Assembly (NCBI RefSeq): GCF_964355755.1
Contig: NC_092676.1
Location: 23,728,288-23,792,287, forward strand
Source of the DNA: Antedon mediterranea
Lineage: Eukaryota; Echinodermata; Crinoidea; Comatulida; Antedonidae
Length of the DNA: 64,000 nt
Direction of reading: 5' to 3'
Below are positions 42,601 to 64,000 of the stretch, piece after piece (position 1 is the stretch's first letter; each line of letters starts with the position of its first letter). The position numbers were made by a program, and so were the translations under genes. The notes beneath the pieces were generated by a model. The model had not been told where the DNA came from. It ran no database searches and worked only from the letters and a program-made list of their open reading frames with translations.

Positions 42601-45600
42601 AATGGGACATTTTGCCATGAAACGAATGAGGAACAATATATGTACGACTAATCCCTATTCAGGGCACACCCCTATTATGGGGACACTTTGCTGTGGAACA
42701 AATGAGGAACAACATATGTACGACTAATCCCTATTCAGGGCACACCCCTATTAATGGGACATTTTGCTGTGGAACAAATGAGGAACAACATATGTACGAC
42801 TAATCCCTATTCAGGGCACACCACTATTAGGGGGACATTTTGCTTTAGAACAAATGAAGAACAATATATGTACCACTAACCCCTATTCAGGGCACACCAC
42901 ACTATTAGGGGGACATTTTGCTTTAGAACAAATGAGGAACAACATATGTACGACTAATCCCTATTCAGGGCACACCCCTATTATGGGGACACTTTGCTGT
43001 GGAACGAATGCGGAACATATGTACGACTAATCCCTATTCAGGGCACACCCCTATTAGGGTGGACATTTTGCTTTAGAACGAATGAGGAACAATATATGTA
43101 CGACTAATCCCTATTCAGGGCACACCCCTATTAGGGTGGACACTTTGCTGTGGAACGAATGAGGAACAATATATGTACGAATAATCCCTATTTAGGGCAC
43201 ACCCCTATTAGGGTGGACACTTTGCTGTGGAACCAATGAGGAACAATATATGTACGACTAATCCCTATTCAGGGCACACCCCTATTAGGGTGGACACTTT
43301 GCTGTGGAACGAATGAGGAACAACATATGTACGACTAATCCCTATTCAGGGCACACCCCTATTAGGGTGGACACTTTGCTGTGGAACGAATGCGTAACAA
43401 TATATGCAGGACTAATCCTTATTCAGGACACAACACTAGTATAGTAGGGGACATATTGTTGTGTCATGAAGGTATTCTAATAGGGGCTCTACTGTGGCCA
43501 CCATATCTCTAAACTTACAATAGCTCCATTTGTTCCTGCCTCAAAATCTGCTCTAACTTGTGGCTGGCCCATGTTGTCCAACACATTCTGTAGCAACAAA
43601 ATTGTCTGTATTGTTTTCTGTTCCTGTTCTTGCCTCAACACCAACTCCCGTTTCACTCTCTTCTTCTCCAATTTTGCATACTGTTAGAAAATAATTCAAT
43701 TAAATTTATCATGAATTAAATTAACTAAATGTAGTAGCAAACTGGAATTCTATCTAAAAACTAGAATAAGACATTTGGAGAATACTAATTTTGGAATGGT
43801 CTGAAAACATCAAGATTATTTCTTTAAGGATGGCCTGCAATAGATCTTCGATCTTTTGGTCTTTCCTACACTACCATCATATTTACAATTTTTTTTAAAT
43901 GATTGATTGTATTTTACAATTTGATTATGAAGGCAAGTAAGGTGAACTTTGACCTGAACAAAACATGTAATGGAAAATTTATTTTTGGAAGCCTAAACAC
44001 AGTAGAATAAAATGCAGTGCATTACAATAGTAAGGCCCTGTTTCTGCTGCCAACTAAATACCGTATATTATACCGTATTTTTTGAATACCGTATATATAC
44101 GGTATATTTTTGGCAGCAGAAACTGCGCTCATAAAAAATATACCGTATTTTGTATACCGTATTTTCCCCACAAAATTTGTGGATAAAATACGGTATTTGC
44201 AAATTTATACCGTATTTTTTGTACCCGTTTCTGCTGCCAATAAAAAATACCGTATTTTTTGACAAAAGGTCAACATTCGTGTTTTTATTTTCTGTCGCTG
44301 TCAGCTGCTTTACACACGTGTATAGATATATTCGGCGAAAATGTGGAGCGAAGACGTCACAGTTTTACTAATTAAATGTGTGTGGGGAAGCTAAAATGTC
44401 TGGCCAACTAATAAAAGGGACAACCACATTTATAAAGACATTTCTAAAAAAATAAAGCAGGAGTATGGAATAGACTTGTCTCCAAAGCAAGTAAACTCAA
44501 AGCTGAAGAGCCTGCGAAAGCAGTACAACATTGCAAAATGCAATAACTCGGGGAGGGAACGAATTAATTGTCCCCATTACGATGTTTTCTGTGCTCTCAC
44601 AACATCTCTATCACTAGGGCTAGGCTGTTGAAAGTGAGACGTAAAACTTCCTTTATTGCGACTTTTAATTATCGATCAAATAATAATGAATGGCAATTTG
44701 GGTAAAAAAGAGGAAATTTAACACGACCACCCAAGAAGTATTATTAGCAGAAACGGGGTACTAAAAAATACGGTATAAAAAATACCGTATTTTATACCGT
44801 ATATTTATACCGTATTTTGAGCAGTTGCAGCAGAAACAGGCCCTTAGACAAGGATTTGGTGGTTATGGTACAGCTACATTAGCCTCATTCACTATGTTAG
44901 GCGATACAAATATTTTGGTGTCGCATCTTTCAGTGTTAGCTAAAATAGACGATTTTCCATGCTACAAAGGCCATCTTGCAGAGATGACAACCAGCTGTGA
45001 CCAGCCGAGCATAAAAACCAATGCAGGTCAAACATTTTTACAGTAATCTTTTTTATGATACGACCCTCCGTTAAGGAGGTACGATTTTGTAATTAACATG
45101 GTGTCATGAAATCCTCTGAAATCGCTGTTAATTTTGTTTTTTTTTTTATGGTCGGCTGGTCACGACCTTTTGTCATTTCGGCAAGATGGCTTCCGTCGTA
45201 GCATCTACGAATTAGTACTGTACAGTAGCTGATGAACGTACATCTGAAGCCATGGACTGAAAGGTCTTGTGAAGTTCTTTAGCAAACTCCAGGTTACCAA
45301 GCACCTCATCGTAATGTTTCAGTGATTGCCGCTGATCATCGTTCAACTCTTTCCCAGATTTTACAAGATCTCTGTAACCCTCGAGTTTACCCTGTGAATT
45401 AAAAAATTTTTTTTAAACATTACCATTAAATATACCTGTGAATTAACAAACGATTATTTATATAGTTTGATCATTTGGAGGTGAGTCACCAGAAAGTCAT
45501 GTTTCCATAAAAAAACATTCAACTCATTATTCATTAAATAAAATCCTGGTTTCTAAAAAGAACACTGTATATAACTAATAGGCCTAATACAAATACATTA

Positions 45601-46032: not shown

Positions 46033-47149
46033 AGTTTCCATACAAAGCAGTGCTATTTCACCGCTACAGTTTTCACGTGGGGTATCCCAGCCTTTAATTA
46101 CCCGAATCCAAGAGAGTAAAGAAATATGTCACCCACAATGCATCAAGTAATGATTTATTATTATATATTTGTTTAATATTAAATGGCAATTATTAAACAT
46201 TGCTGATAATTAATTTACGAAAACCATTAATTTTTAAAAAAACAATGAATTTGTTGGTGGAAAAGTAGGATAATATTAGGATATTTTAGGAAATGAGCTT
46301 TCATTTTAAGCATATAAACATATTAAGGTAAATGATGACGTAATCGAACGAATTTCAAAGACCACACACTCGTCCACACCACCACCAGTCAACCAATCCC
46401 AAACCACAACTACGCACCGGTACCCTCAGGTGCACCCCAAAAACTATAATAAGTGGTGTTGATAAAAGTAACTGTTTAACTTTTTTATCATAACCTATTA
46501 TAATAAATGTATTCTACTGAATGTATACACAGAAAGTTAAGGGAATTTTCTAGAACGTAACGACGTTTTACGCAAAGATCTTTGTACATAAAGCATATCT
46601 GTTTGGTGGCGCTATATTTTAAAATGACCATTACTCAAAAGACAAATAAATCACATTGTGAAACTGGTTCATTTCAATTATTTTATTTCAGAAAAAAATA
46701 CTTAAAGGCTACCGTACGACGTATAAAATTATGTAGCATCTTTCAAAGGATTTTCCGGCATTATTTTACGGTGACTATGTAGGCCTACATTTGTATACAA
46801 AATTAAAATAAATACCATTTAATAGGCCTATAGGCCTATGTTCAAGAACACCAGAAGCATAGGGCGATATATTAATCCACCATTTCGTTATGTAATGTCC
46901 TATTCAATTTCAATTAGTAACTAGAGTTAAAGTTGGGCTTTATCATGAGAAATGTGAAATTTTATTTGGAGGGTGATGGCCCGGCGATGGTTTAGATAAA
47001 AAATAGGCGGCCTACTAAATTGTAGGCTATTTTCACAAATTTTTGAAGGTCTGTAATCTGGTAACGTAGGCTATAAGGTGTTTTTTTTTTATAAAGTTGC
47101 GGCGGCCTACTGTTCTGAGGTCTAGGCCTATAGTTTACCCATCAAATAA
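46033..47149. other. Intergenic: caprin upstream region and GPCR1 3' flank
   Basis: Caprin transcription points left from here and GPCR1 also ends here, so the caprin promoter lies between. On the minus strand a CACGTG E-box is near 46075 and GCATTGTGGG near 46138. For GPCR1 an AATAAA on the minus strand is at 46961-46966, about 185 bp past its stop. Nothing else coding was seen. Confidence 0.5.
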
Positions 47150-48693
47150 TTAGAGAGAGGTACTCTGTTCCTGGGTGGTCGAACGATCCACTCGACGCCC
47201 GAGCACAACTCGATCCCGACAACAGAACGTCTTACAGAACCCTTGCTTGTAATCAGGGAATTTGTATGCGTAAACGAACGGATTAGCGACCATATTAAAT
47301 AAATATAAAACTATAGAAACTATTACGTAATAACTTAATTTACCAGATGTTGACACTACTGCTAACGAGAGATACAATAACATTGAAGGGCTCAAACAAA
47401 TTATGTAAATCAAAGTAGTTATCAAAACAGTTATTGTAAAGTTTCGTTCCGTTTGGTTGTTTTGTTTTTGATTTGTTGACGATTCGGCATCCGTTTGTTG
47501 AGTTCTTGTTAACTCTTTCCGCGTTATTAACTGTTCACATAATGCAACATAAACACGATGATAACAATACAACATTATAGAAATAGGAATTATTCCCGTT
47601 CCGAATAATAGTATAACTCCTGTACTTATGGCGATGTTTTTTTCTTCAAACGATATTTTACATTTTCCTTCTTCGTTTATACCCAAAACAATAGCAAAAT
47701 AAAAGCTCGTAAGAAAGGAAGAAACAAATGGAATGCTTAATCGTGGTAGCAAACTTTTATTTTGGTTACCCCTTGCCCAGTATTTAAGTGGGTGGACCAC
47801 TGCAATGTACCTCTCAACAGATATCAAGACAAGATTATGTGACGATGCAAATATGATAAAATAGAAAATTGCACCCGATTTGCAAGCGATTGATGTTTTC
47901 AAATCTACAAATGAAAACACAACGAAGGAACCACATCCTAGCATATCTATCACAGCTTGCTGCAACACTAGAGTATAGGAGAAAGATTTGGAATGTATCT
48001 TGCAGTTGATGAAAACAATAATCACCGTCAGGTTAGCAAGAACTCCAATGATGGCCAAAATTGGTGCAATGACACGTGATGGACCTATCGTTGAAGATGA
48101 TGTTTCCGTTGTATTCATGTCAGAACTGTTGTATCCTTCATCTATATACAAAAAAAAAATGTTTAAAGAATATGTTCAAAATAAGTTAAGGTACAAATGT
48201 CAAAACAAAAGTTACTTGATACGTTGACGAAATGAATCCATCGGATCGGATTCATTTCGTCAACGGAATTATCAATCTGGTAATTTTTTGGATTGAATCT
48301 TTAATTTTGTAAAGATTAATATAAACTATAATCGGTTCTTCAATTACTTTTATTGTAGTATTAAAAGGACAAGTTTTAGAAACTATTCGAAAAATTAAAA
48401 ATGGAGGAAAGGAAAAGGTGTTTAATTTACTTGATTACAATTTGAACTGTTCCTGAAAGATGTACTTTAAACAATGATTGAGTTTATAAAAACATCATGA
48501 CTAATAACAACAATGACTGCATATACAAAGTAGAATCATTTTAGTTATTTTGGATTTGATATAATAGTACAGTAGAAATTACAAACTATAGGCCTATGTC
48601 CCTACCTTGCTCATTCATATTGTTGCTGCTATGGCAAACTGCAACAAAGATGGCGAAAGAACTAAATGTTAACAAAGGAAACCGAATCCGCAT
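47150..48693 (-). CDS. Class A GPCR 1, two exons with signal peptide
   Basis: Seven-transmembrane receptor, plasma membrane, ligand unknown. Exon 2 (47150-48141) holds the whole 7TM body. Its open frame starts right at a polypyrimidine tract plus acceptor (tatag/AT), not at an ATG. Exon 1 (48606-48693) encodes MRIRFPLLTFSSFAIFVAVC, a good signal peptide, then HSSNNMNEQ, ending CAAG/gtaggg. The junction is phase 1 on both sides, giving 359 residues. The extracellular tail has N-glycosylation sites NSS and NTT. Seen: GVLANLTVI (TM1 Asn 66), VIDMLG (TM2 Asp 95), ERY 139-141 for DRY, Cys 116 and Cys 190 for the disulfide, SPSM with the TM6 Pro 281, NPFVY 316-320, and a Cys-rich end GFCKTFCCRD. 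The TM6 CWxP motif is absent. The C-terminal tail nearly matches GPCR2. It could be an orphan chemosensory or peptide receptor. Confidence 0.88.
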
Positions 48694-49490: not shown

Positions 49491-49665
49491 TAAAGGGTCT
49501 TTCACACCTGTTCCGTTACGGTTCCGCACGGCGAATCGAACGCCAATGTTTCGTTTTCACGACGCTATGCGCCAATCGATATGCGCGTAGCGGCGTAAAA
49601 ACGAAACGTTGACGTTCGATTTGATTTTCCGGAACCGTATAGGAACAGATGTGAAAGACACTTTA
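49491..49665. mobile_element. Palindromic miniature element between GPCR1 and GPCR2
   Basis: About 175 bp with long inverted arms: left GTCTTTCACACCTGTTCC and TTTCGTTTT; right AAAACGAAACG and GGAACAGATGTGAAAGAC. The centre is GCGCCAATCGATATGCGC. It could fold on itself almost entirely. There is no open frame of note. Confidence 0.65.
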
Positions 49666-50201: not shown

Positions 50202-50375
50202 ACAGAAATCAACGTAATCAGATTTCTTTTACGTTATATTTGTGTCATCGTTATACGCCAAAAGTTCACTGCCTAAACCTATTAATGATAGGTTCATGCA
50301 TAAACTACTAATTGTACCGATACTTTTATACAAATCACTATATTCATCAGAGTTCAATATTACTTACCAAAAGCT

Positions 50376-50487
50376 CCGTATACACACTATCAAACTAGTT
50401 TGATAACAAAACAGTTTGATGTGCCCAATGGTAGTGATAGGACATCATCGTGTCCATATGGGTACATCACATTTTTGTAGACAAGGC
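50376..50487. mobile_element. Copy of the TACACTATCAAACT palindromic MITE (copy 3)
   Basis: Contains ACACTATCAAACTAGTTTGA, GATGTGCCCAATGGTAGTGA, GACATCATCGTGTCCATA and GGTACATCACATTTTTGTAG. It is a shortened member of the family at 11401, 16880, 52517 and 57715. Confidence 0.75.
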
Positions 50488-50799: not shown

Positions 50800-50840
50800 T
50801 TTTTCCCCATCAAACTTCCGTTACTGTGGTCTGATCTATA
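50800..50840 (-). pseudogene. Relic of the GPCR4-type C-terminal tail behind the GPCR2 stop
   Basis: Minus-strand GATCAGACCACAGTAACGGA, followed by AGTTTGA, corresponds almost base for base to the end of GPCR4 (codons for QTTVMEV and stop), but here it lies past the GPCR2 stop codon. It shows that GPCR2 once ended like GPCR4. The interval 50836-50920 now holds a GPCR1-like tail. Confidence 0.75.
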
Positions 50841-50857
50841 GTTTACCCATTAAATAA

Positions 50858-51781
50858 TTAGATACTCTGTTCCTGGGTGGTCGAACGATCCACTCGACGG
50901 CCCAGTACCACCCGATCCCGACAACAGAACGTCTTACAGAACCCTTGCTTGTAATCGGCGAGTTTATATGCGTAAACGAACGGACTAGCTACCATATTGC
51001 ATAACAATAAAACGCTAAAATTTAGGTAATAGCTTAGGTCATCAGTGGCAACTGCTGCCACCATAAATATTAATATTGATAGAAGATTAAATACTACATA
51101 AATCAGTGTGTTTATAAACATTACAGTTGTGAAGTTTCGTTCAGCTTCGTTTCTCAGTTGCTTTGCATCTGTCGGCGATTCAGCACCTGTTGTCGTTAAC
51201 TCTGTTCGTGTTTTCGACTGTTCACGTAGGGCAACATAAATTCGTCGATAACAGAATAACATTATAAAAATAGGCAGTACTCCACCTAATATTGACAGTA
51301 AAACAGTTGAACCTATCAAAATGCGTCTGTTTTTAACAAAACATTCTCCCATCTCATTTACATCTACAAAAATCGGAACATGAAAAACTGTCAAAAGAGA
51401 AAAAACAAATGGGATGCACAGTCGTGGTAGCAATCTCTTCTTCTCAGTACCCCTCGCCCAGTATTTAAGCGGATGGACCACTGCAATGTACCTCTCAATA
51501 GATATCAGGGCGAGATTATATGCTGATGCAAATAAAATGAAGTAAAATACTGTGACCCCTGTTTTGCAAGCGATGCTACTTTTGTTTCCATTTACACACG
51601 AAAACACGGCGTAACAAAAGCACCCTAGCATATCTGTAACAGCTTGCTGCAACACTAGAGTATAGGCGAAGGATCTTGTATGTATCTTGCAGTTGATAAA
51701 AACAATAATCACCGTCAGGTTAGCAAGAACTCCAATGATGGCCAACATTGTTGCGGCCACAAACAGTATCACAACAATCAT
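50858..51781 (-). CDS. Class A GPCR 2
   Basis: 307-residue 7TM receptor in one coding exon. The ATG lies directly after an acceptor-like atattttatag, so a 5' UTR exon upstream is likely. Seen: GVLANLTVI, AVTDMLG, SIERYIAVVHPLKYWARG, CKTGV paired with GECF for the ECL2 disulfide, and NMVASPFVYAY, in which NPxxY has become SPFVY: the usual Asn is Ser. TM6 reads VVFNLLSILI, without the proline seen in GPCR1, 3 and 5. The body is closest to GPCR4 (both have MGECF, NRRILI, SILGGVLPI), yet the last 20-odd residues (RVVLGRRVDRSTTQEQS) match GPCR1, a sign of gene conversion. The N-terminus is short, without glycosylation sites. Confidence 0.85.
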   Translation of the reverse strand: MIVVILFVAATMLAIIGVLANLTVIIVFINCKIHTRSFAYTLVLQQAVTDMLGCFCYAVFSCVNGNKSSIACKTGVTVFYFILFASAYNLALISIERYIAVVHPLKYWARGTEKKRLLPRLCIPFVFSLLTVFHVPIFVDVNEMGECFVKNRRILIGSTVLLSILGGVLPIFIMLFCYRRIYVALREQSKTRTELTTTGAESPTDAKQLRNEAERNFTTVMFINTLIYVVFNLLSILIFMVAAVATDDLSYYLNFSVLLLCNMVASPFVYAYKLADYKQGFCKTFCCRDRVVLGRRVDRSTTQEQSI

Positions 51782-52516: not shown

Positions 52517-52820
52517 GCTCTGTCTTCACTATCAAACTAGTTTGACAAAAAAAAAGTGTGATGTGCCCAAATAGGTGGTGATATGCCTAAATATTATTAA
52601 ATAGATTTATCTGGTTCCAAATATATTAAAGTGGAAAATTATTACTTTTTTGTTGAACAAAAAAAAGAAGCAAAAATGGTATAATTACCTTCCAAACAGT
52701 AGTTTGAAGAAGTCGACAGTATGTCACTAAGGTATTTATATCAATTGTGCCTTATTTGTTTTTAATTCAACAAAAAAGTAATAATTTTCCACTTTATGCC
52801 TAAATATGAGCTTAAGAAGA
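52517..52820. mobile_element. MITE copy 4, disrupted by a second element
   Basis: The left part reads CACTATCAAACTAGTTTGAC and GTGTGATGTGCCCAAATAGG. After TATGCCTAAATAT the copy is interrupted by the 52595-52794 insertion and resumes after a second TATGCCTAAATAT. The right half of the family consensus is missing. Confidence 0.65.
52627..52796. mobile_element. Miniature element with perfect 31-bp terminal inverted repeats
   Basis: Bases 52627-52657 and 52766-52796 are exact reverse complements (starting TAAAGTGGAAAATTATTACT). TA at both outer ends fits a Tc1/mariner-type TA duplication. A 13-bp direct repeat, TATGCCTAAATAT, at 52582-52594 and 52795-52807 could instead mark a larger inserted unit that includes 32 bp of extra sequence on the left. 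Non-coding. Confidence 0.8.
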
Positions 52821-53095: not shown

Positions 53096-54046
53096 TTATT
53101 GCATAGGTATAGTTTGATTTACGTGTTCCATCCGATGATTTCGACAACGGAAAGTCTTACGGAATCCTTTCTTGTAATCGGTGAATGTATATGCGTAAAC
53201 GAACGGATTAGCTACCATATTACATAAAATCAAAGCATTACAAATCATAGCAATGATGATTAAATGCAAGTTAGGCTTATACCATTGAAAAATAAGTATC
53301 CAAAGATTGACTAACATCGATGGGGAAAAAAGTATTATGTAAATTAAAGTGTTTATAAACATTGTACTTGTAAAGTTTCGTTCAGCTTTGTTTCTTAGTT
53401 GCTTTGAATCTGCAGCTGGCGATGTACTACCTGGTTGCTGTATCCTCTGTGGCGTCATTAACTCGGCTCGTGTTCTTGACTTTTGACGTAGTGTAACATA
53501 AACCTGACGATAACAGTGCAACATTATAACAATGGGTAGTAGTATAGCTGATATAGATATTAAAACATTTGAACTTATTAACATTATTTTGTTTTTGAAC
53601 AGACAATATCCAAATTCATTTACATCCAGAACAAGCGGAAGATAAAAGCATGTCAGAAGAGAGGAAACGAATGGAATGCATAGTCGTGGTAGCAATCTTA
53701 TCTTCTGAGTGCCCCTTGCCCAGTATTTAAGTGGATGGACCACTGCAATGTACCTCTCAATAGATATTAGTACGAGATTATGTGACGATGCGAATATGAT
53801 AAAATAGAAGATTACAGAAGATCTGCAAGCGATGGTGTTTCCATTTACAAATGAAAACACAACATTACAACAGCACCCTAGCATATCTATAACAGCTTGC
53901 TGCAACACTAGAGTATAGGCGAAGGATCTTGTATGTATCTTGCAGTTGATGAAAACTATAATCACCGTCAGGTTAGCAAGAACTCCAATGATGGCCAAAG
54001 GTGTCATAATAAACTTTGCAACTAGGATTATTGCCTCAATAGTCAT
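53096..54046 (-). CDS. Class A GPCR 3
   Basis: 316-residue 7TM receptor in a single coding exon. The ATG follows two bases after a strong acceptor (ccgtcttttacag/AT ATG), so a 5' UTR exon probably lies upstream; a good donor GAGAGAAG/gtaaga is at about 54458. Seen: GVLANLTVI, VIDMLGCCC, SIERYIAVVHPLKYWARG, SPSMLV in TM6 and NMVANPFVYAY. The third intracellular loop is somewhat long (TPQRIQQPGSTSPAADSKQ). The tail FRKTFRCRNHRMEHVNQ lacks the paired cysteines of GPCR1, 2 and 4. A minus-strand AATAAA is at 53028-53033, about 65 bp past the stop. Its 3' half and 3' flank are closest to GPCR5, its 5' part and upstream flank to GPCR4. Confidence 0.87.
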   Translation of the reverse strand: MTIEAIILVAKFIMTPLAIIGVLANLTVIIVFINCKIHTRSFAYTLVLQQAVIDMLGCCCNVVFSFVNGNTIACRSSVIFYFIIFASSHNLVLISIERYIAVVHPLKYWARGTQKIRLLPRLCIPFVSSLLTCFYLPLVLDVNEFGYCLFKNKIMLISSNVLISISAILLPIVIMLHCYRQVYVTLRQKSRTRAELMTPQRIQQPGSTSPAADSKQLRNKAERNFTSTMFINTLIYIILFSPSMLVNLWILIFQWYKPNLHLIIIAMICNALILCNMVANPFVYAYTFTDYKKGFRKTFRCRNHRMEHVNQTIPMQ

Positions 54047-55807: not shown

Positions 55808-56728
55808 TCAAACTTCCATTACTGTGGTCTGATCTCGACAACAGAACGTCTTACAGAATCCTTTCTTGTAATCGGTGAACTTGTATGCGTAAACGAATGG
55901 ATTAGCTACCATATTGCATAACAATAAAACGCTAAAAATTACGTAATAGCGTAAATCGTCAGAACGACCTGCTGCAGCTATATGTATTAACATTGATAGA
56001 AAATCAAATATTACATAAATCACAGTGTTTATCAACATTGTAGTTGTGAAGTTTCGTTCAGCTTCGTTTCTGAGTTGCTTTGCATCTGTCGGCGATTCAA
56101 CACCTGATTGCGTTATGCTTCCTTTCGTCGTTAACTCTGTTCGTGTTCTCGACTGTTCACATAGTGTAACATAAACTCGTCGATAACAGAATAACATGAT
56201 CAAAATAGGTAGTACTCCACCTAATATTGACATTAAAACACTCGAAGATATCAAAATGCGTCTGTTTTCAACAAAACATTCTCCCATCTCATTTACATCT
56301 ACAAAAATCGGAACATAACAAACTGTCAGAAGAGAAGAAACAAATGGGATACACAGTCGTGGCAGCAATCTCTTCTTCTGAGTACCTCTTGCCCAGTATT
56401 TAAGTGGATGGACCACTGCAATGTACCTCTCAATAGATATTAAGACGAGATTATATGCGGATGCAAATAAAATGAAGTAAAATATTGTGACACCTGTTTT
56501 GCAAGCGATGCTACTTTTGTTTCCATTTACACACGAAAACACAGCGTAACAGCAGCACCCTAGCATATCTATAACAGCTTGCTGCAGTACTAGAGTATAG
56601 GCGAAGGATCTTGTATGTATCTTGCAGTTGATAAAAACAATAATCACCGTCAGGTTAGCAAGAACTCCAATGATGGCCAAAGGTGTCATAGTACACTTTG
56701 CAACTAGGATTATTGCATCAATAGTCAT
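55808..56728 (-). CDS. Class A GPCR 4
   Basis: 306-residue 7TM receptor in one coding exon; the ATG follows the same cttttacag/AT acceptor as in GPCR3. Positions: TM1 Asn 25, TM2 Asp 54, disulfide Cys 76 and Cys 151, ERY 100-102, NPFVY 276-280, then GFCKTFCCRD and a short tail QTTVMEV. TM6 (VIYVIFDFLSMLIHI) has no proline. The first 60 residues nearly equal GPCR3; the rest is nearest GPCR2. It is transcribed towards GPCR3, like all members of the array. Ligand unknown. Confidence 0.87.
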   Translation of the reverse strand: MTIDAIILVAKCTMTPLAIIGVLANLTVIIVFINCKIHTRSFAYTLVLQQAVIDMLGCCCYAVFSCVNGNKSSIACKTGVTIFYFILFASAYNLVLISIERYIAVVHPLKYWARGTQKKRLLPRLCIPFVSSLLTVCYVPIFVDVNEMGECFVENRRILISSSVLMSILGGVLPILIMLFCYRRVYVTLCEQSRTRTELTTKGSITQSGVESPTDAKQLRNEAERNFTTTMLINTVIYVIFDFLSMLIHIAAAGRSDDLRYYVIFSVLLLCNMVANPFVYAYKFTDYKKGFCKTFCCRDQTTVMEV

Positions 56729-57035
56729 ATCTGTAAAAGACGAAGAATGTTTTCCTGGTTATAATTCTAGAACAACAAAGTACACTAACGTTGATCCATA
56801 GAAAACAGTTCAATTTACTAATTTTTCTACGGTACATGAATATTAAACAATTTACAATAGACCACCTGTTTGTCTATTATTTATCAAAGATACAGTTTTT
56901 ATGCAAAAGACGATTATATAGAAATGATGACAACATATATGGCGATAAAGGGCCGTGCTATTGGGGTTGCTTTTCGACTGAAACGAACCATACGCCATTA
57001 ATGCAATTTTGTTATAAGAAAATAAGGGTAGATAA

Positions 57036-58276: not shown

Positions 58277-59022
58277 TCATCTATTTATACATTATAATCA
58301 TTTAGCTAGATAACTCAAAATATTAATGGTGGCGATAATAATACAAATGATTAACATTAATTTTCACAAATTATTAGTTTTAAAGAAATGTTTTTGAAGG
58401 AGTACATTTGTTTGCGAAATATACAGATAATAGATTGTACATGTCTTTCACTGCTCGGGTATTCTAAAATTATTCTGTTTCTGCTCTTGCGGTTTTTTTT
58501 TCTTCTTCAGTTACTACCGGGTTTAGCAGATATGTACTTTGTGTGAGAGTTACAAGACGGAAAGTTAAAAGATCATTGTATCACTGTATTATGCTCGAAA
58601 CTGAGCTTAGCCAAAGATCGGCATGAAAATCAACATGTCATACATATATATGTCATACATGTATACGTACAAGGTTATGGTTGTATGCAATCACTCTAAA
58701 GAAAAAGAAGATATAAAACATAAGATATGTTATACATCGTGATCAATTTTGACAGTACATAACGGAAATCGAATACAGTGTCAGATTTATACAAGAGAGG
58801 TCAGTTTTTGGACACTTCATTGGCTTTTTAGGTGATTCTTATCTATCCCGGGTGACTAGGCCTTTCGCTAGGCCCGGTATATTAGGTATTTTACCTTTTC
58901 AACAAAGGGGAACGATACGCTACCCGATCACCTTTCGGATTTCTATTGTTCTATCCTCTCTCTTTTGTTCTTACAAATCGATTGGTTACGTAAGACCTGC
59001 TGAAACTGTAAACAAATCTGCT

Positions 59023-60051
59023 ATGCCTAGTACCGGGAAAATAAAGAAGCCTGACCAACCAGATAAAATCTGCACCTCAGGCTGCCCACTAAAAGGGAAA
59101 CCGCAAGGCGACTCTATAAGGTGTTGTATATGTGGACACTGGTTTCATACAAAATGTTTAAAATTAAGCGATGATGAAGTAACAGGAGTATGGCCTTGTT
59201 ATAACTGTAGATCTATGCCAACTGAAGTCACACGAATTTTGGAGATCGTTGAATCTATGGCTAAAGTAAATGAAAACCAAGTGCAAAAAATAATTGAGTT
59301 AGAAAAAAAGATTGACCACTTAACCCAAATAGTGAAAGACTTAAAACATGAAAATACTGAAAATGATCTGAATGCTGAAGAACAGAAACAAAATGTCGGT
59401 AAACTATTAATTGGCGATTCTCTTATTAAGAATATCGTCACTACAAGTGATTTTATGGAAGTTAAATCCATAAGTGGAGCTGATCTACAAAAAATAAAAG
59501 AGTGCCTAACAACCAAAGAAGCAGTCGAAGAAATAAATATAGTGTGTGGAACGAACGACATAGCATCGGACAAGTCCATCGATGAAATAACTGAGCTCCT
59601 TACCGATGTCATAAAAGTTGCCAAGGAAAAGGCAAATAAAGTGAAGATAGCCAGTATACCACCACGTTTGGACAGAAATCATGACCCTATGAAGCTTGAA
59701 ACAGTTAATAACATAATGAAGACGGTAACGGAAGATAGTAACGTAATCTTCGTTAATAATGACGACAATTTCAAATATAGAGACAACACTTTTGAGAGCA
59801 CTCTTTTATCTTCGGATGGACTTCACTTGTCTGAAACTGGAGTAAAACGACTCTTGAGCAATCTCCAACTTGAGAACTGGACAGAATGCGATACATTCTT
59901 TCGTAGGCAAAATGGAATCGGAAGAGGAAACGAAAGAGGAAACGGAAGAGGATACAGACAAGGATACAGACAAGGAAACAATAGAAGATGCTACAATTGC
60001 GGCCAATCCGGACACATATCGAAGTTCTGTAGAAACAATTATTGGGCTTAA
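59023..60051 (+). CDS. LINE ORF1: PHD finger, coiled coil, esterase, zinc knuckle
   Basis: 342 residues from the first in-frame ATG (MPSTGKIKKPDQ); the open frame extends 171 bp further upstream without an ATG. In order: a PHD-type zinc finger (CTSGCPLKG, CCICGHWFHTKC, CYNC), a coiled coil (about residues 70-120), an SGNH-hydrolase segment (LLIGDSLIKN, INIVCGTNDI, SSDGLHLSETG giving the Ser, Asn and Asp-His blocks), an RG-rich stretch, and a CCHC knuckle CYNCGQSGHISKFC. ORF1 proteins of this layout bind RNA as part of the LINE particle (family knowledge). The frame is intact here. Confidence 0.87.
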   Translation: MPSTGKIKKPDQPDKICTSGCPLKGKPQGDSIRCCICGHWFHTKCLKLSDDEVTGVWPCYNCRSMPTEVTRILEIVESMAKVNENQVQKIIELEKKIDHLTQIVKDLKHENTENDLNAEEQKQNVGKLLIGDSLIKNIVTTSDFMEVKSISGADLQKIKECLTTKEAVEEINIVCGTNDIASDKSIDEITELLTDVIKVAKEKANKVKIASIPPRLDRNHDPMKLETVNNIMKTVTEDSNVIFVNNDDNFKYRDNTFESTLLSSDGLHLSETGVKRLLSNLQLENWTECDTFFRRQNGIGRGNERGNGRGYRQGYRQGNNRRCYNCGQSGHISKFCRNNYWA

Positions 60052-63000
60052 AAATCTGATTGATAAATTATCAAATTGTAAGGGTTTGAAATTAGCTCAT
60101 CTTAATGCCAGAAGTATTATAAATAAGATTGATGAGTTTCGTATAATAGCACTAAAAGCAAAAATTGATGTTTTATAACAGAGAATATGCATTGTTAAAT
60201 GAAAATGTGGTAGATGAAAAAAATCAAAAACAACTATGTAAGAAAAAAAATAAGCTTGTTAATGAAAATGTGTTACAGATAATATGTTTAAAAAGAGGAA
60301 GCTATGTAATCAATGTGATAATATGTAAACAAATGAATAAAACTCTTTAAATAAGTATATGTATACAGATGATTAAACAAACATTGTAAATTTAATGATA
60401 TGTATAGTGTATAGTGAAAAATATATGCAAAGAGAACAGTGGTATGGAAATAAAAGTGGGATGAACCCACATAAGATAAAAAAAAAAAAATTGATGTTTT
60501 ATGTGTATCTGAAACATGGCTACATGAGGGCATCAGTGATGGGTTTGTAGATATAGATGGATACAATATGATCCGTAAAGATCGTTCTGGAAAAAAAGGT
60601 GGTGGTGTTAGCATCTATATTAAGAATACCATATCTTATAAAGAAAGATCTGATTTATATGTAAATGATCTGGAGGCTGTATGGCTGGAGCTATTAGGAC
60701 AAAAAAGTCAAAATATTTTAATATGCTGTTTATACCGCCCTCCAAATGCAAATTATGAATATTTTAACTTAATTATTGATTTACTTGAAAAAGTTAGTAT
60801 GGAAAACACTGAAATTGTACTACTCGGCGATTTTAATATTGATTATGTCTTAAATGAGAACCTCTCGAAAAATCCTATCAATATGATCGAAAACATGTTT
60901 GTTATGACCCAGTTGATTCATGATAAAACAAGAGTTACGTCACACTCATCAAGTTGTATTGATTTGATACTAACAACAATTCCAGATCAGCACTATTTTA
61001 AGTGGTGTTGCTAAAATAGCTTTAAGCGACCATTTTATGGTTTACAGCTGTTTAAAATTTAAGGAAAAAGAAGCTAAACATAAAACAATATATTATAGAG
61101 ATTATAAGAACTTTGATGAAGGGGCATTCTTGCATGATATTTCCCATTCTCAGAAATTACAAAATATTCACAATATTAATAACGTTGACAATGCATGGGG
61201 TACGTTTAAAAATTGCTTTCTAAATTTAAGTAATAAACATGGGCCTATAAAAAATTCAAGAATAAAAAATAGATTCTCTCCCTGGATAACTCCTGAAATT
61301 ATAAAGTTAATGTACAAAAGAGATTATACTAAAAGCAAAGTAAATGTTAATAATCCAGGATTAAAAACTGAGTATAGAAGACTTAGAAATCTGGTTAACA
61401 CTAACATTAAGAAAGCAAAGTATAACTATTTTAATAATGTAAATATAAAATATAAAAATAATCCAAAAAAAATGTGGAACGAGCTAAATAAACTAACTGG
61501 TAAAACGAAATCTAACATTAGTAAAACTATTGATTGCGAACATTTTAATGAATACTTTACCAACATAGGAGTTAAGATGGCGCAGTCATTTGACGATACG
61601 CTGCCAAGTTGGAATAATCCACCTAGTGAATATTCCTTTAATTTTATAAATGTTGATGTAAATACCATTAAAAGGAAGCTTTATAATTTGCCAGAAAAAA
61701 ATTTAGATGTTCTTGATTTTGATAGTAAATTGTTAAGGTTAGCAGCTCCGTACATTGCTTATCCATTGTGTCATATTGTGAATCTCTCTCTCATGTCTGG
61801 TCTTGTCCCAGCTGATTGGAAAGTAGCAAGGACAACTCCTATATATAAAGGAAAGGGTAGTAAAGACAGTATGAGCAACTACAGACCAATATCTGTCGTT
61901 GCTCATATCGCAAAGATTATAGAGAGAGTGGTTCAGGAACAAATCATTTCTTTTCTTAGTTTGTTTGATTTGATTAACATTGATCAATTTGCCTTTTTGA
62001 AAAACCATTCTACTGTAACATGCTTGCACAGAGTAGTTGATGATTGGTTAGAAAGTTTTAATGACTCAGAGGTCGTCGGCGCTTGTTTCTTAGATATATC
62101 CAAGTGCTTTGACACGATAGATCACTCAATTTTGTTATTTAAGCTTTACAAATATGGTTTCCATGAAAATGTTGTTTACTGGTTTAGTAATTACTTAAAA
62201 AACAGAAAACAGTTTGTATACTGTAACAATAACAAATCTACACTTAAAGAAATCAATATTGGTGTTCCACAAGGAAGTGTCCTGGGACCCATCTTGTTTC
62301 TCATTTTCATAAATGATATTTCGCAGTCTATAGTAAATGGAACTTGCAGCGTTTTTGCTGATGATGTTGTGGTTTACACCTCAGGTGATACTGCTAAGAT
62401 AGTAAATGATTCATTACAAATAATTATTGATAACATTGGTAAATGGTATGATGACAACCACCTCTCTATAAATACTGAAAAAACAAAGGTTATGTTACTA
62501 AGAAACAATCATACAGCTGACAGTAATGATTTAAATATACAAATTGGAACCAGTAAATTAGAACAAGTTGATAGTATAAGGTATCTGGGAGTCGTAATCG
62601 ATGAAATGTTAACTTGGAAACAAAATACTCAATGTATTAGTAAAAATATTGGATATAAAATAACAATGCTAGGTAAAATGGCTAGTAGTTTAAGTAAACC
62701 GTTACTTGAAACTCTATATATAAGTACAATTCAGCCTTGTAGTGATTATGCTATAACAGTCTGGGGAAATACGACAGAGTTAAACAAAAATATTTTAAAG
62801 CGACATCAAAAAAGAGCTGCTCGAATTGTAACTAACAACTTCGATTATATTAATGTAAGGGGTGACAACATCATCCAGAACCTATCGTGGCAAACTCTTG
62901 AAGAGAAACGAGATTTCTCCCTAGCATGTCTAATGTATAAATGTGTTTACGGCCTTGCACCAATTAGATTAGTAAATGAAATTGAATTGATTCGCGATAT

Positions 63001-63187
63001 TCACACCCACTTAACACGTGGAGTAGAAAATTTGAATGTAACAATACCTAAATACACCCTTAGTAAAATGAATTCGTCCTTTAAAGTTGCAGGCGCAAAA
63101 ATATGGAACAATTTACCAATTAATATTAAATCGGCACCAACAATTACGTCCTTTAAGGCTAGATACAAATCTCATTTCTTTTCATAA
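59912..63187 (+). pseudogene. LINE ORF2: endonuclease and reverse transcriptase, interrupted
   Basis: Three pieces. 59912-60176 (overlaps ORF1) ends in the endonuclease start AHLNARSIINKIDEF. After the insertion the frame resumes at about 60487 with VSETWLHEGI, and LLGDFNIDYV, ending at a stop at 61012-61014. A +1 frameshift around 60996-61001 moves reading to the frame with ALSDHF and the long 61037-63187 piece. The RT core is whole: KGSKDSMSNYRPIS, DISKCFDTIDH, GVPQGSVLGPILF, FADDVVVY, LSINTEKTKVM and YLGVVID. All endonuclease signature blocks are present (N, E-TW, GDFN, SDH). It is non-functional only because of the two lesions. Confidence 0.88.
60177..60485 (+). mobile_element. Poly(A) retro-insertion nested in the LINE ORF2
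   Basis: Flanked by a 17-bp target duplication AAAAATTGATGTTTTAT (60160-60176 and 60486-60502). About 309 bp, ending in a run of A, with AATAAA at 60449-60454 about 22 bp before the tail. The first 170 bp are open in one frame (NENV appears twice) and end at TAA 60348-60350, followed by about 130 bp of 3'-UTR-like sequence. This looks like a 5'-truncated processed copy of a cellular mRNA, or a SINE. Source gene not recognised. Confidence 0.85.
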
Positions 63188-63614: not shown

Positions 63615-64000
63615 CTACGAGATAGTGGTAGTCTTTATCTCCCTGGTTTGATTTTTTACGTATTCCATTCGACGCTCCCGAAAACAGAAAGTCTTACAGA
63701 ATCCATTCTTGTAATCGGTGAATTTGTATGCGTAAACGAATGGATTAGCTACCGTATTACATAAAAATAAAACTTTAGAAACAATAAGAATAATCGTAGA
63801 ATGCAAGTTATTCCATTCAAAAATTGCCATCAAAAGATGGACTAACATCGATGGAGAAACAAGTATTATGTAAACAAGAGTGTTTATTAACATTGTAGTT
63901 GTAAAGTTTCGTTGAGCTTCGTTTCTACGTTGCGTTGGATCTGCTAGTGATTCGTTTCTTCGTTGCTTTGTCCTCTGTAGCGTTAACAACGCTGTTCCTG
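63615..64000 (-). CDS. Class A GPCR 5, partial (runs off the right edge)
   Basis: Only the last part is inside the window: end of intracellular loop 3 (RRNEAQRNFTTTMLIN), TM6 with SPSMLVHLL, TM7 NTVANPFVYAYKFTDYKNG and the tail FCKTFCFRERRMEYVKNQ. The frame is still open at base 64000, so no start is visible. The 3' flank (about 63430-63600) aligns with the GPCR3 3' flank, including AATAAAATCAACTTTTT on the plus strand, making GPCR3 the nearest relative. The LINE at 58.9-63.3 kb separates it from GPCR4. Confidence 0.85.
   Translation of the reverse strand, partial: GTALLTLQRTKQRRNESLADPTQRRNEAQRNFTTTMLINTLVYIILVSPSMLVHLLMAIFEWNNLHSTIILIVSKVLFLCNTVANPFVYAYKFTDYKNGFCKTFCFRERRMEYVKNQTREIKTTTIS

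Follow-up and report, generated by a model that had tools for sequence, protein, structure and literature searches.

A tandem-array GPCR gene whose tail and stop region group with one paralog and whose body groups with another

Does GPCR2, one of a row of receptor genes in Antedon mediterranea, carry a cytoplasmic tail that its own body did not inherit, and does the sequence behind its stop codon record the tail that it had before? The tail of a GPCR governs desensitization and partner binding, and the transmembrane core binds ligand; a natural recombinant of core and tail with a relic lets one ask if the receptors of an array exchange tails as modules. Sequence that follows a stop may be taken for a tail since lost, or for what gave a neighbor its new tail, and the polarity of tail loss or gain needs an outgroup. 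The window analyzed here is a stretch of 64,000 nucleotides (G000:C7:23728288-23792287) from a genome of 354 Mb in 18 contigs, and its minus strand carries an array of class A GPCR genes, GPCR1-GPCR5, of which a sixth copy, G6, lies outside the window (Table 1). GPCR1-GPCR4, the four genes that are whole in the window, all pass the curated cut-off of the 7tm_1 profile (30.5 bits, vs 85.7 for GPCR2) and are predicted class A (rhodopsin-like) GPCRs. Their nearest relatives outside the array are on contig C11, at 46% protein identity. As a separate observation, GPCR2 has SPFVY at 50972-50986 (minus strand), as opposed to NPFVY in all five other copies; we take this stretch to be the NPxxY motif, its Asn being Ser in GPCR2.

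Table 1. Features of the array and of genes compared with it (window positions unless a contig or locus is named)
Feature	Position	Strand	Basis or remark
GPCR1	47150-48151	minus	ORF and profile match
Element behind GPCR1 stop, AGACCTCAGAACAGTA	47108-47123	minus	resembles G6 tail; relic more weakly
Counterpart of the tract in GPCR1 (possible donor)	47128-47254	minus	alignment, genome search
GPCR2 coding exon, 307 aa, class A 7TM	50858-51781	minus	7tm_1, E 4.9e-24
GPCR4-like body of GPCR2 (89%)	50914-51745	minus	alignment, trees
GPCR1-like tract of GPCR2, largest	50836-50956 (smallest 50947-50836)	minus	just after TM7, tail, stop, 3' UTR start
81 bases in GPCR2, absent from GPCR4	50833-50913	minus	bounded by GATC 50917-50914 and 50836-50833
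Five-codon island R V V L G	50900-50914	minus	codon alignment; silent third-base difference from GPCR1 in each codon
Relic	50808-50837	minus	29/30 bases as in GPCR4 tail; frame open 50836-50810
GPCR3, 3' UTR GPCR5-like	53096-54046	minus	ORF and profile match
GPCR4	55808-56728	minus	ORF and profile match
GPCR4 short tail, codes the element in frame (DQTTVMEV stop)	55808-55834	minus	ORF
GPCR4 5' segment, about 92-100% like GPCR3, inside GPCR2-matching flanks	56681-57032	minus	alignment
GPCR5, 3' part	63615-64000, gene continues beyond window end	minus	tail homologous to GPCR1's
G6, sixth receptor copy, broken pieces, short tail	L001, C7:23794839-23795875		beyond window
B2, body/tail hybrid receptor gene	L008 3190-5415 (C2:6704589 onward)		breakpoint near NPxxY

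Conflict between body and tail in GPCR2

The body of GPCR2 is closest to that of GPCR4, as the preliminary description had held, at 89% over 850 aligned columns vs 75-76% for GPCR1, GPCR3, and GPCR5 (75% for GPCR1). The body tree joins GPCR2 and GPCR4 with a support of 100%, and in a topology test of eleven listed trees (ten distinct, two being the same unrooted tree), both trees tried with GPCR1 and GPCR2 as sisters were rejected (AU 3e-13 and 1e-6). The proportion of 4-fold body sites that differ from GPCR2 is 15/102 in GPCR4, 22/69 in GPCR1, 20/79 in GPCR3, 25/82 in GPCR5, and 18/58 in G6. The first 30 bases of GPCR2 are G6-like and unlike GPCR4 (triplet test, descent 9, 0/4000 permutations), which is consistent with a GPCR2/4/6 group in which the 5' end of GPCR4 was overwritten from GPCR3. 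This test was read on its best 30 rows with one tract per pair; it stopped at the left GATC, and the GPCR1 tail tract is absent among those 30 rows because few informative sites remain in the tail. In a separate site-run test the alignment misplaced the extra segment against the GPCR4 UTR, and its p-value is not relied on.

The tail and stop region of GPCR2, on the other hand, form a tract in common with GPCR1 that the body contradicts. The segment, its stop, and the sequence TAATTATTT-ATGGGTAAACTATAG match GPCR1, as previously noted, and nothing else in the genome at the sensitivity of the search. Within the tract the two genes differ by five silent changes (the other 26 of the 31 tail codons are identical), by one gap of 6 bases, present in GPCR1 before the stop and missing from GPCR2, and by one change in the UTR. 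The best tail tree contains GPCR1+GPCR2, and the three trees that lack this pair gave AU values of 0.012, 0.012, and 0.054; the SH test rejected none of the six trees tried, two of which are the same unrooted tree, in an alignment that kept only the first 38 bases of GPCR4 and G6. Agreement between the tail and body phylogenies, which had been named as an observation that would refute an exchange, was thus not seen, the two being in conflict. A mobile-element origin of the 81 bases absent from GPCR4 was considered and rejected, because copies of them occur in GPCR1 and GPCR2 alone at the search's sensitivity.

When GPCR1, GPCR2, and GPCR4 are compared at the left end of the tract, GPCR2 last agrees with GPCR4 against GPCR1 at 50957; at 50947, 50942, and 50918 it is GPCR1-type, and the bases at 50947 and 50942 set GPCR1 and GPCR2 apart from the four other copies. 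The tract therefore starts 27-37 bases before CGGGATC (50920-50914), in the conserved TM7/helix 8 DNA. At the right end it stops at 50836, and GPCR2 is GPCR4-like from 50835 on; here the homology between GPCR1 and GPCR2 is weak (the AGACC element), and the position of the junction in GPCR1 is not homologous. The segment had been put at about 85 bp with a GATC shared by both breakpoints. The extra sequence relative to GPCR4 amounts to 81 bases (50913-50833), and a GATC does stand at both ends of it, with a third one inside (50890-50887), but the left GATC is not the limit of the tract.

Behind the GPCR2 stop, 29 of 30 bases are identical between 50837-50808 and 55835-55806 (both minus strand), the latter spanning the GPCR4 tail, in keeping with the relic reported there. 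Its old frame is still open and reads D Q T T V T E V stop. A 26-base pattern taken from the relic, with up to 3 mismatches allowed, has 2 matches in the genome, in GPCR2 and GPCR4, vs 0 for the reversed control. Beyond the relic, the 3' UTRs of GPCR2 and GPCR4 gave no alignment above chance (65/500 shuffles; 146/500 for the first 120 bases). The sequence supports the reading that these 30 bases would be the old GPCR2 tail, the sixth copy having a similar short tail in frame. An argument from the youth of the relic (1 difference in 30) was set aside: it fails to separate the two main histories weighed below because the GPCR4 copy codes in both. Both flanks of the tract keep the ancestry of the recipient, with a GPCR4-like body on one side and a GPCR4-like relic on the other, the downstream flank of GPCR1 is unlike that of GPCR2, and the flanks past the relic are not GPCR1-like. 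Since neither side is flanked by GPCR1 sequence, the exchange was non-reciprocal and not a crossover.

The tract is not one uniform young stretch, although conversion in general does not require this. All five codons of the island in Table 1 carry a silent change, vs 0/26 codons elsewhere in the tail (clustering p about 1.1e-4), and the 15 bases of the island are an alignment gap in GPCR3 and GPCR5. Judged from the substitutions, the island looks as old as the GPCR1 and GPCR2 bodies and the bases on either side look young, which implies for the island a divergence older than the GPCR2/GPCR4 split as dated by the 4-fold sites. An older island calls for an older or second donor or for repeated patchy conversion; patchy or repeated exchange would explain it, and a single recent copy from GPCR1 would not.

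Age of the long and the short tail

GPCR4 and G6 both end in a short tail. That of G6 is in frame (TGTCGGGGTAAGACCTCAACAGTAACG), with the TGTCG-AGACC spacing of GPCR4. Its element resembles the relic (0/1000 shuffles; 0/5000 in both mononucleotide and dinucleotide shuffles) and the GPCR4 tail (30/5000 mononucleotide, 0/5000 dinucleotide). The G6 and GPCR4 elements differ by 3 bases in the coding part, which keeps the frame, and by a further base at the stop codon of G6; at the junction GPCR4 has GATC once, and G6 has GGTA at the same place. The placement of G6 with GPCR2/4 has a support of 67% in the DNA body tree and 53% in the protein tree; it reaches 71% in the 5' half of the body, and the grouping is absent from the 3'-half tree. 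Over the whole body, G6 beside GPCR1 (AU 0.40) or beside GPCR3/5 (AU 0.13) was not rejected. The position of G6 would decide between the two main histories, and its support is weak.

A sequence like the relic also stands behind the stop of GPCR1, an observation that the preliminary description had counted as refuting an exchange. This element, at 47123-47108, resembles the relic weakly, and exchange is not refuted by it. In local alignments it scored against G6 with 1/5000 mononucleotide and 6/5000 dinucleotide shuffles, against GPCR4 with 50/5000 and 57/5000, and against GPCR2 with 105/5000 and 121/5000; under global scoring the counts were 34, 24, and 216 of 5000 for G6, GPCR4, and GPCR2, respectively. 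The relic itself gave null results against a longer GPCR1 flank (170/1000 shuffles), GPCR3 (104/1000), and GPCR5 (817/1000). Because of the element behind GPCR1, the relic could be read as ordinary old 3' UTR.

The long tail can be followed beyond GPCR1 and GPCR2. The tails of GPCR1 and GPCR5 are alike at 0/5000 mononucleotide shuffles and at 0 and 1/5000 dinucleotide shuffles, depending on which partner is shuffled, and those of GPCR5 and GPCR3 at 0/5000 in both shuffle types; the tails of GPCR1 and GPCR3 are not alike above chance (1308/5000 and 1677/5000), and GPCR2 vs GPCR5 is weak (369/5000 and 633/5000). Sequence behind the stops of GPCR1 and GPCR2 was not above chance against that of GPCR5 or GPCR3 in any of the four pairs. 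GPCR1 branches outside all other array members in the rooted protein tree (84% for the rest). The two closest outgroup receptors, on C11, have short tails and were judged too distant to align in the tail stretch. The homology of the GPCR1 tail to that of GPCR5 makes the long tail old within the array and not a foreign insert, and it suits GPCR1 as the putative donor. On these alignments it is probably the short tail that is derived, GPCR2 having regained a tail rather than received a new one. The short form would have arisen most simply by a deletion through which 3' UTR became coding. Slippage deletions typically show a direct repeat, here GATC, at both ends of the lost segment, and the one copy of the repeat expected at the junction is found in GPCR4.

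Histories compatible with the shared tail

GPCR1 and GPCR2 have exchanged tail sequence under both of the main histories that we consider. According to the first, which we favor, gene conversion (ectopic, non-reciprocal recombination) between tandem paralogs has made GPCR2 a mosaic. In the ancestral receptor of the array, a long tail would have been followed, within the 3' UTR, by the element; loss of about 81-88 bases in the ancestor of GPCR2, GPCR4, and G6 would have fused the body to that element, giving the short tail; and GPCR2 would then have been repaired, in a single patch or several, with GPCR1 as donor and by way of the TM7/helix 8 homology, regaining the long tail and pushing its short-tail codons back behind the stop, where they would form the relic. 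The expected effect is a receptor that would combine its own transmembrane core with the cytoplasmic tail of GPCR1. One deletion in a common ancestor explains why GPCR4 and G6 have the same junction. Against this account stand the silent island, the weak placement of G6, the short tails of the outgroup, the SH result for the tail, the non-homologous right junction, the lack of a GPCR2/GPCR4 match past the relic, and tail homology that is clear for GPCR1/GPCR5 and GPCR5/GPCR3 alone. We regard a single GPCR2/4/6 deletion followed by regain of the long tail in GPCR2 through conversion with GPCR1 as about evenly poised between right and wrong, and the same holds for the full history of GPCR2 as such a mosaic. 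In the second main history, the long tail of GPCR2 has been there throughout: GATC slippage removed the 81 bases from GPCR4, G6 lost the same piece separately, the relic is ordinary 3' UTR, and the tails of GPCR1 and GPCR2 were homogenized in patches, in either direction, leaving the island as old divergence. The island indeed fits the divergence of the GPCR1 and GPCR2 bodies (22/69) better than the GPCR2/GPCR4 level (15/102), the 81 bases have GATC at both ends as in a slippage deletion, a relic-like element lies behind GPCR1, and the long tail is common to GPCR1 and GPCR5. However, GPCR4 and G6 would each need a deletion of its own, with junctions that agree to within a few bases, and the GPCR4 tail is closer to the GPCR2 relic than to the G6 element, so it was not recently taken from G6. 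We consider this second history a real but distinctly less probable possibility. These weights are judgements, not computed posteriors, and one genome does not settle which type of tail GPCR2 formerly had.

The other explanations fare worse. If the short tail were ancestral, a foreign tail from GPCR1 would have entered GPCR2 by insertion or conversion starting at the GATC, in line with the two short-tailed C11 receptors, with the short tails of GPCR4 and G6, and with a segment found in GPCR1 and GPCR2 alone at the sensitivity of the search; we think this improbable, since the homologous tails of GPCR1 and GPCR5, together with the outermost position of GPCR1 (84%), make long tails an old feature of the array, and the left GATC lies inside the tract rather than at its start. 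The conversion or insertion from GPCR1 put forward in the preliminary description accordingly survives as an exchange of tail sequence between GPCR1 and GPCR2, but not as the arrival of a foreign tail, not with the GATC as its left limit, and not as a single recent copy. Unequal crossing over between GPCR1 and GPCR2 would suit a head-to-tail array and has a parallel in another array, where gene B2 is a body/tail hybrid with the 3' flank of its tail parent; it is nevertheless very unlikely here, as the tract is followed downstream by the GPCR4-like relic and then by DNA that does not match the GPCR1 flank. Similar paralogs can also be mis-joined in an assembly, yet GPCR1 and GPCR2 differ within the tract and the relic occurs at two places in the genome alone, so that an artefact or a chance similarity is the least credible of the explanations and barely worth entertaining.

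Mosaicism in this and other arrays

Conversion between neighboring GPCR paralogs, and mosaics with islands of divergence, are already documented. For example, gene conversion has been described between the neighboring mammalian chemokine-receptor genes CCR2 and CCR5 (PMC8877049, PMC2880985), which, in the parts of these papers available to us, are likewise neighboring class A paralogs (about 76% identity in human) that exchange segments and so form chimeric receptors. The segments discussed there involve extracellular and intracellular domains and extracellular loops, whereas in GPCR2 they comprise the tail, the stop, and the start of the 3' UTR, and an apparent former coding tail survives behind the GPCR2 stop. 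As far as the available excerpts go, the GOT1 paralogs of Tigriopus are similar mosaics in which converted stretches alternate with divergent islands, with conversion making new proteins, although they encode an enzyme rather than a receptor and were studied with population data (PMC3728101). Among fish opsins, medaka RH2B/RH2C are tandem GPCR duplicates in which part of the gene carries a signal of recombination, but the signal concerns introns and coding sequence of visual opsins, and the portion of that report available describes no tail exchange (PMC3514295). For human rhodopsin-type GPCRs, the accessible text argues that recombination moved segments between receptors; those signals are deep and at the protein level, whereas GPCR2 presents an event at the DNA level with visible ends (PMC2684142). 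Among the papers listed by searches on GPCR conversion and on echinoderm and chemosensory GPCRs we found no tail exchange with the old tail kept behind the stop, which is not proof of absence.

Alignments indicate that the array is mosaic throughout. GPCR5 has a GPCR1-like 5' end and a GPCR3-like middle, and GPCR3 and GPCR5 have a 3' UTR in common. Beyond the GPCR3-like 5' segment of GPCR4 the sequence again matches the upstream flank of GPCR2, at 76-81%. This exon/intron segment appears to be a second, younger conversion in the array.

Three further receptor clusters were compared, chosen as visible clusters and not at random. In the 6.70-Mb array of C2, gene B2 resembles B1 at mostly 92-100% as far as roughly the NPxxY codons (one stretch of 60 columns is at 78%); past them it is 91-100% like B3 through the tail and 3' UTR, where B1 falls to 33-69%, and the match between B2 and B3 continues for ~1 kb beyond the tail. 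The 19.72-Mb array of C11 holds three genes with a common tail and 3' UTR, mostly at 98-100% (92-96% in the last stretch), even though two of them match at 69% over part of the body; the 3' end of a fourth gene is unrelated. In the 9.20-Mb array of C2 the body/tail signal was judged weaker. From array A, a non-receptor ORF (662 aa) was dropped, and gene a355 was aligned but kept outside the pairs compared. A clear split between body and tail near the end of TM7 is thus seen in two of these three arrays, a count made over visible clusters. We would only tentatively, and with more doubt than confidence, go on to propose that the TM7 end/helix 8 is a recurrent exchange point of tandem GPCR arrays in this genome, that cores and tails assort as modules, and that in GPCR2 the tail was deleted and then restored from a neighbor, leaving the relic.

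The spacers of the array hold further repeated sequence. Between GPCR4 and GPCR5, a non-LTR retrotransposon-like element occupies 58852-63187, with an ORF that has esterase-like and zinc-knuckle matches followed by reverse transcriptase. Positions 50369-50478 are part of a dispersed repeat with at least 45 further matches in the genome (78-89%), and the self-complementary spacer stretches at 49491-49665, 52627-52796, and 44040-44255 are perhaps small inverted-repeat elements.
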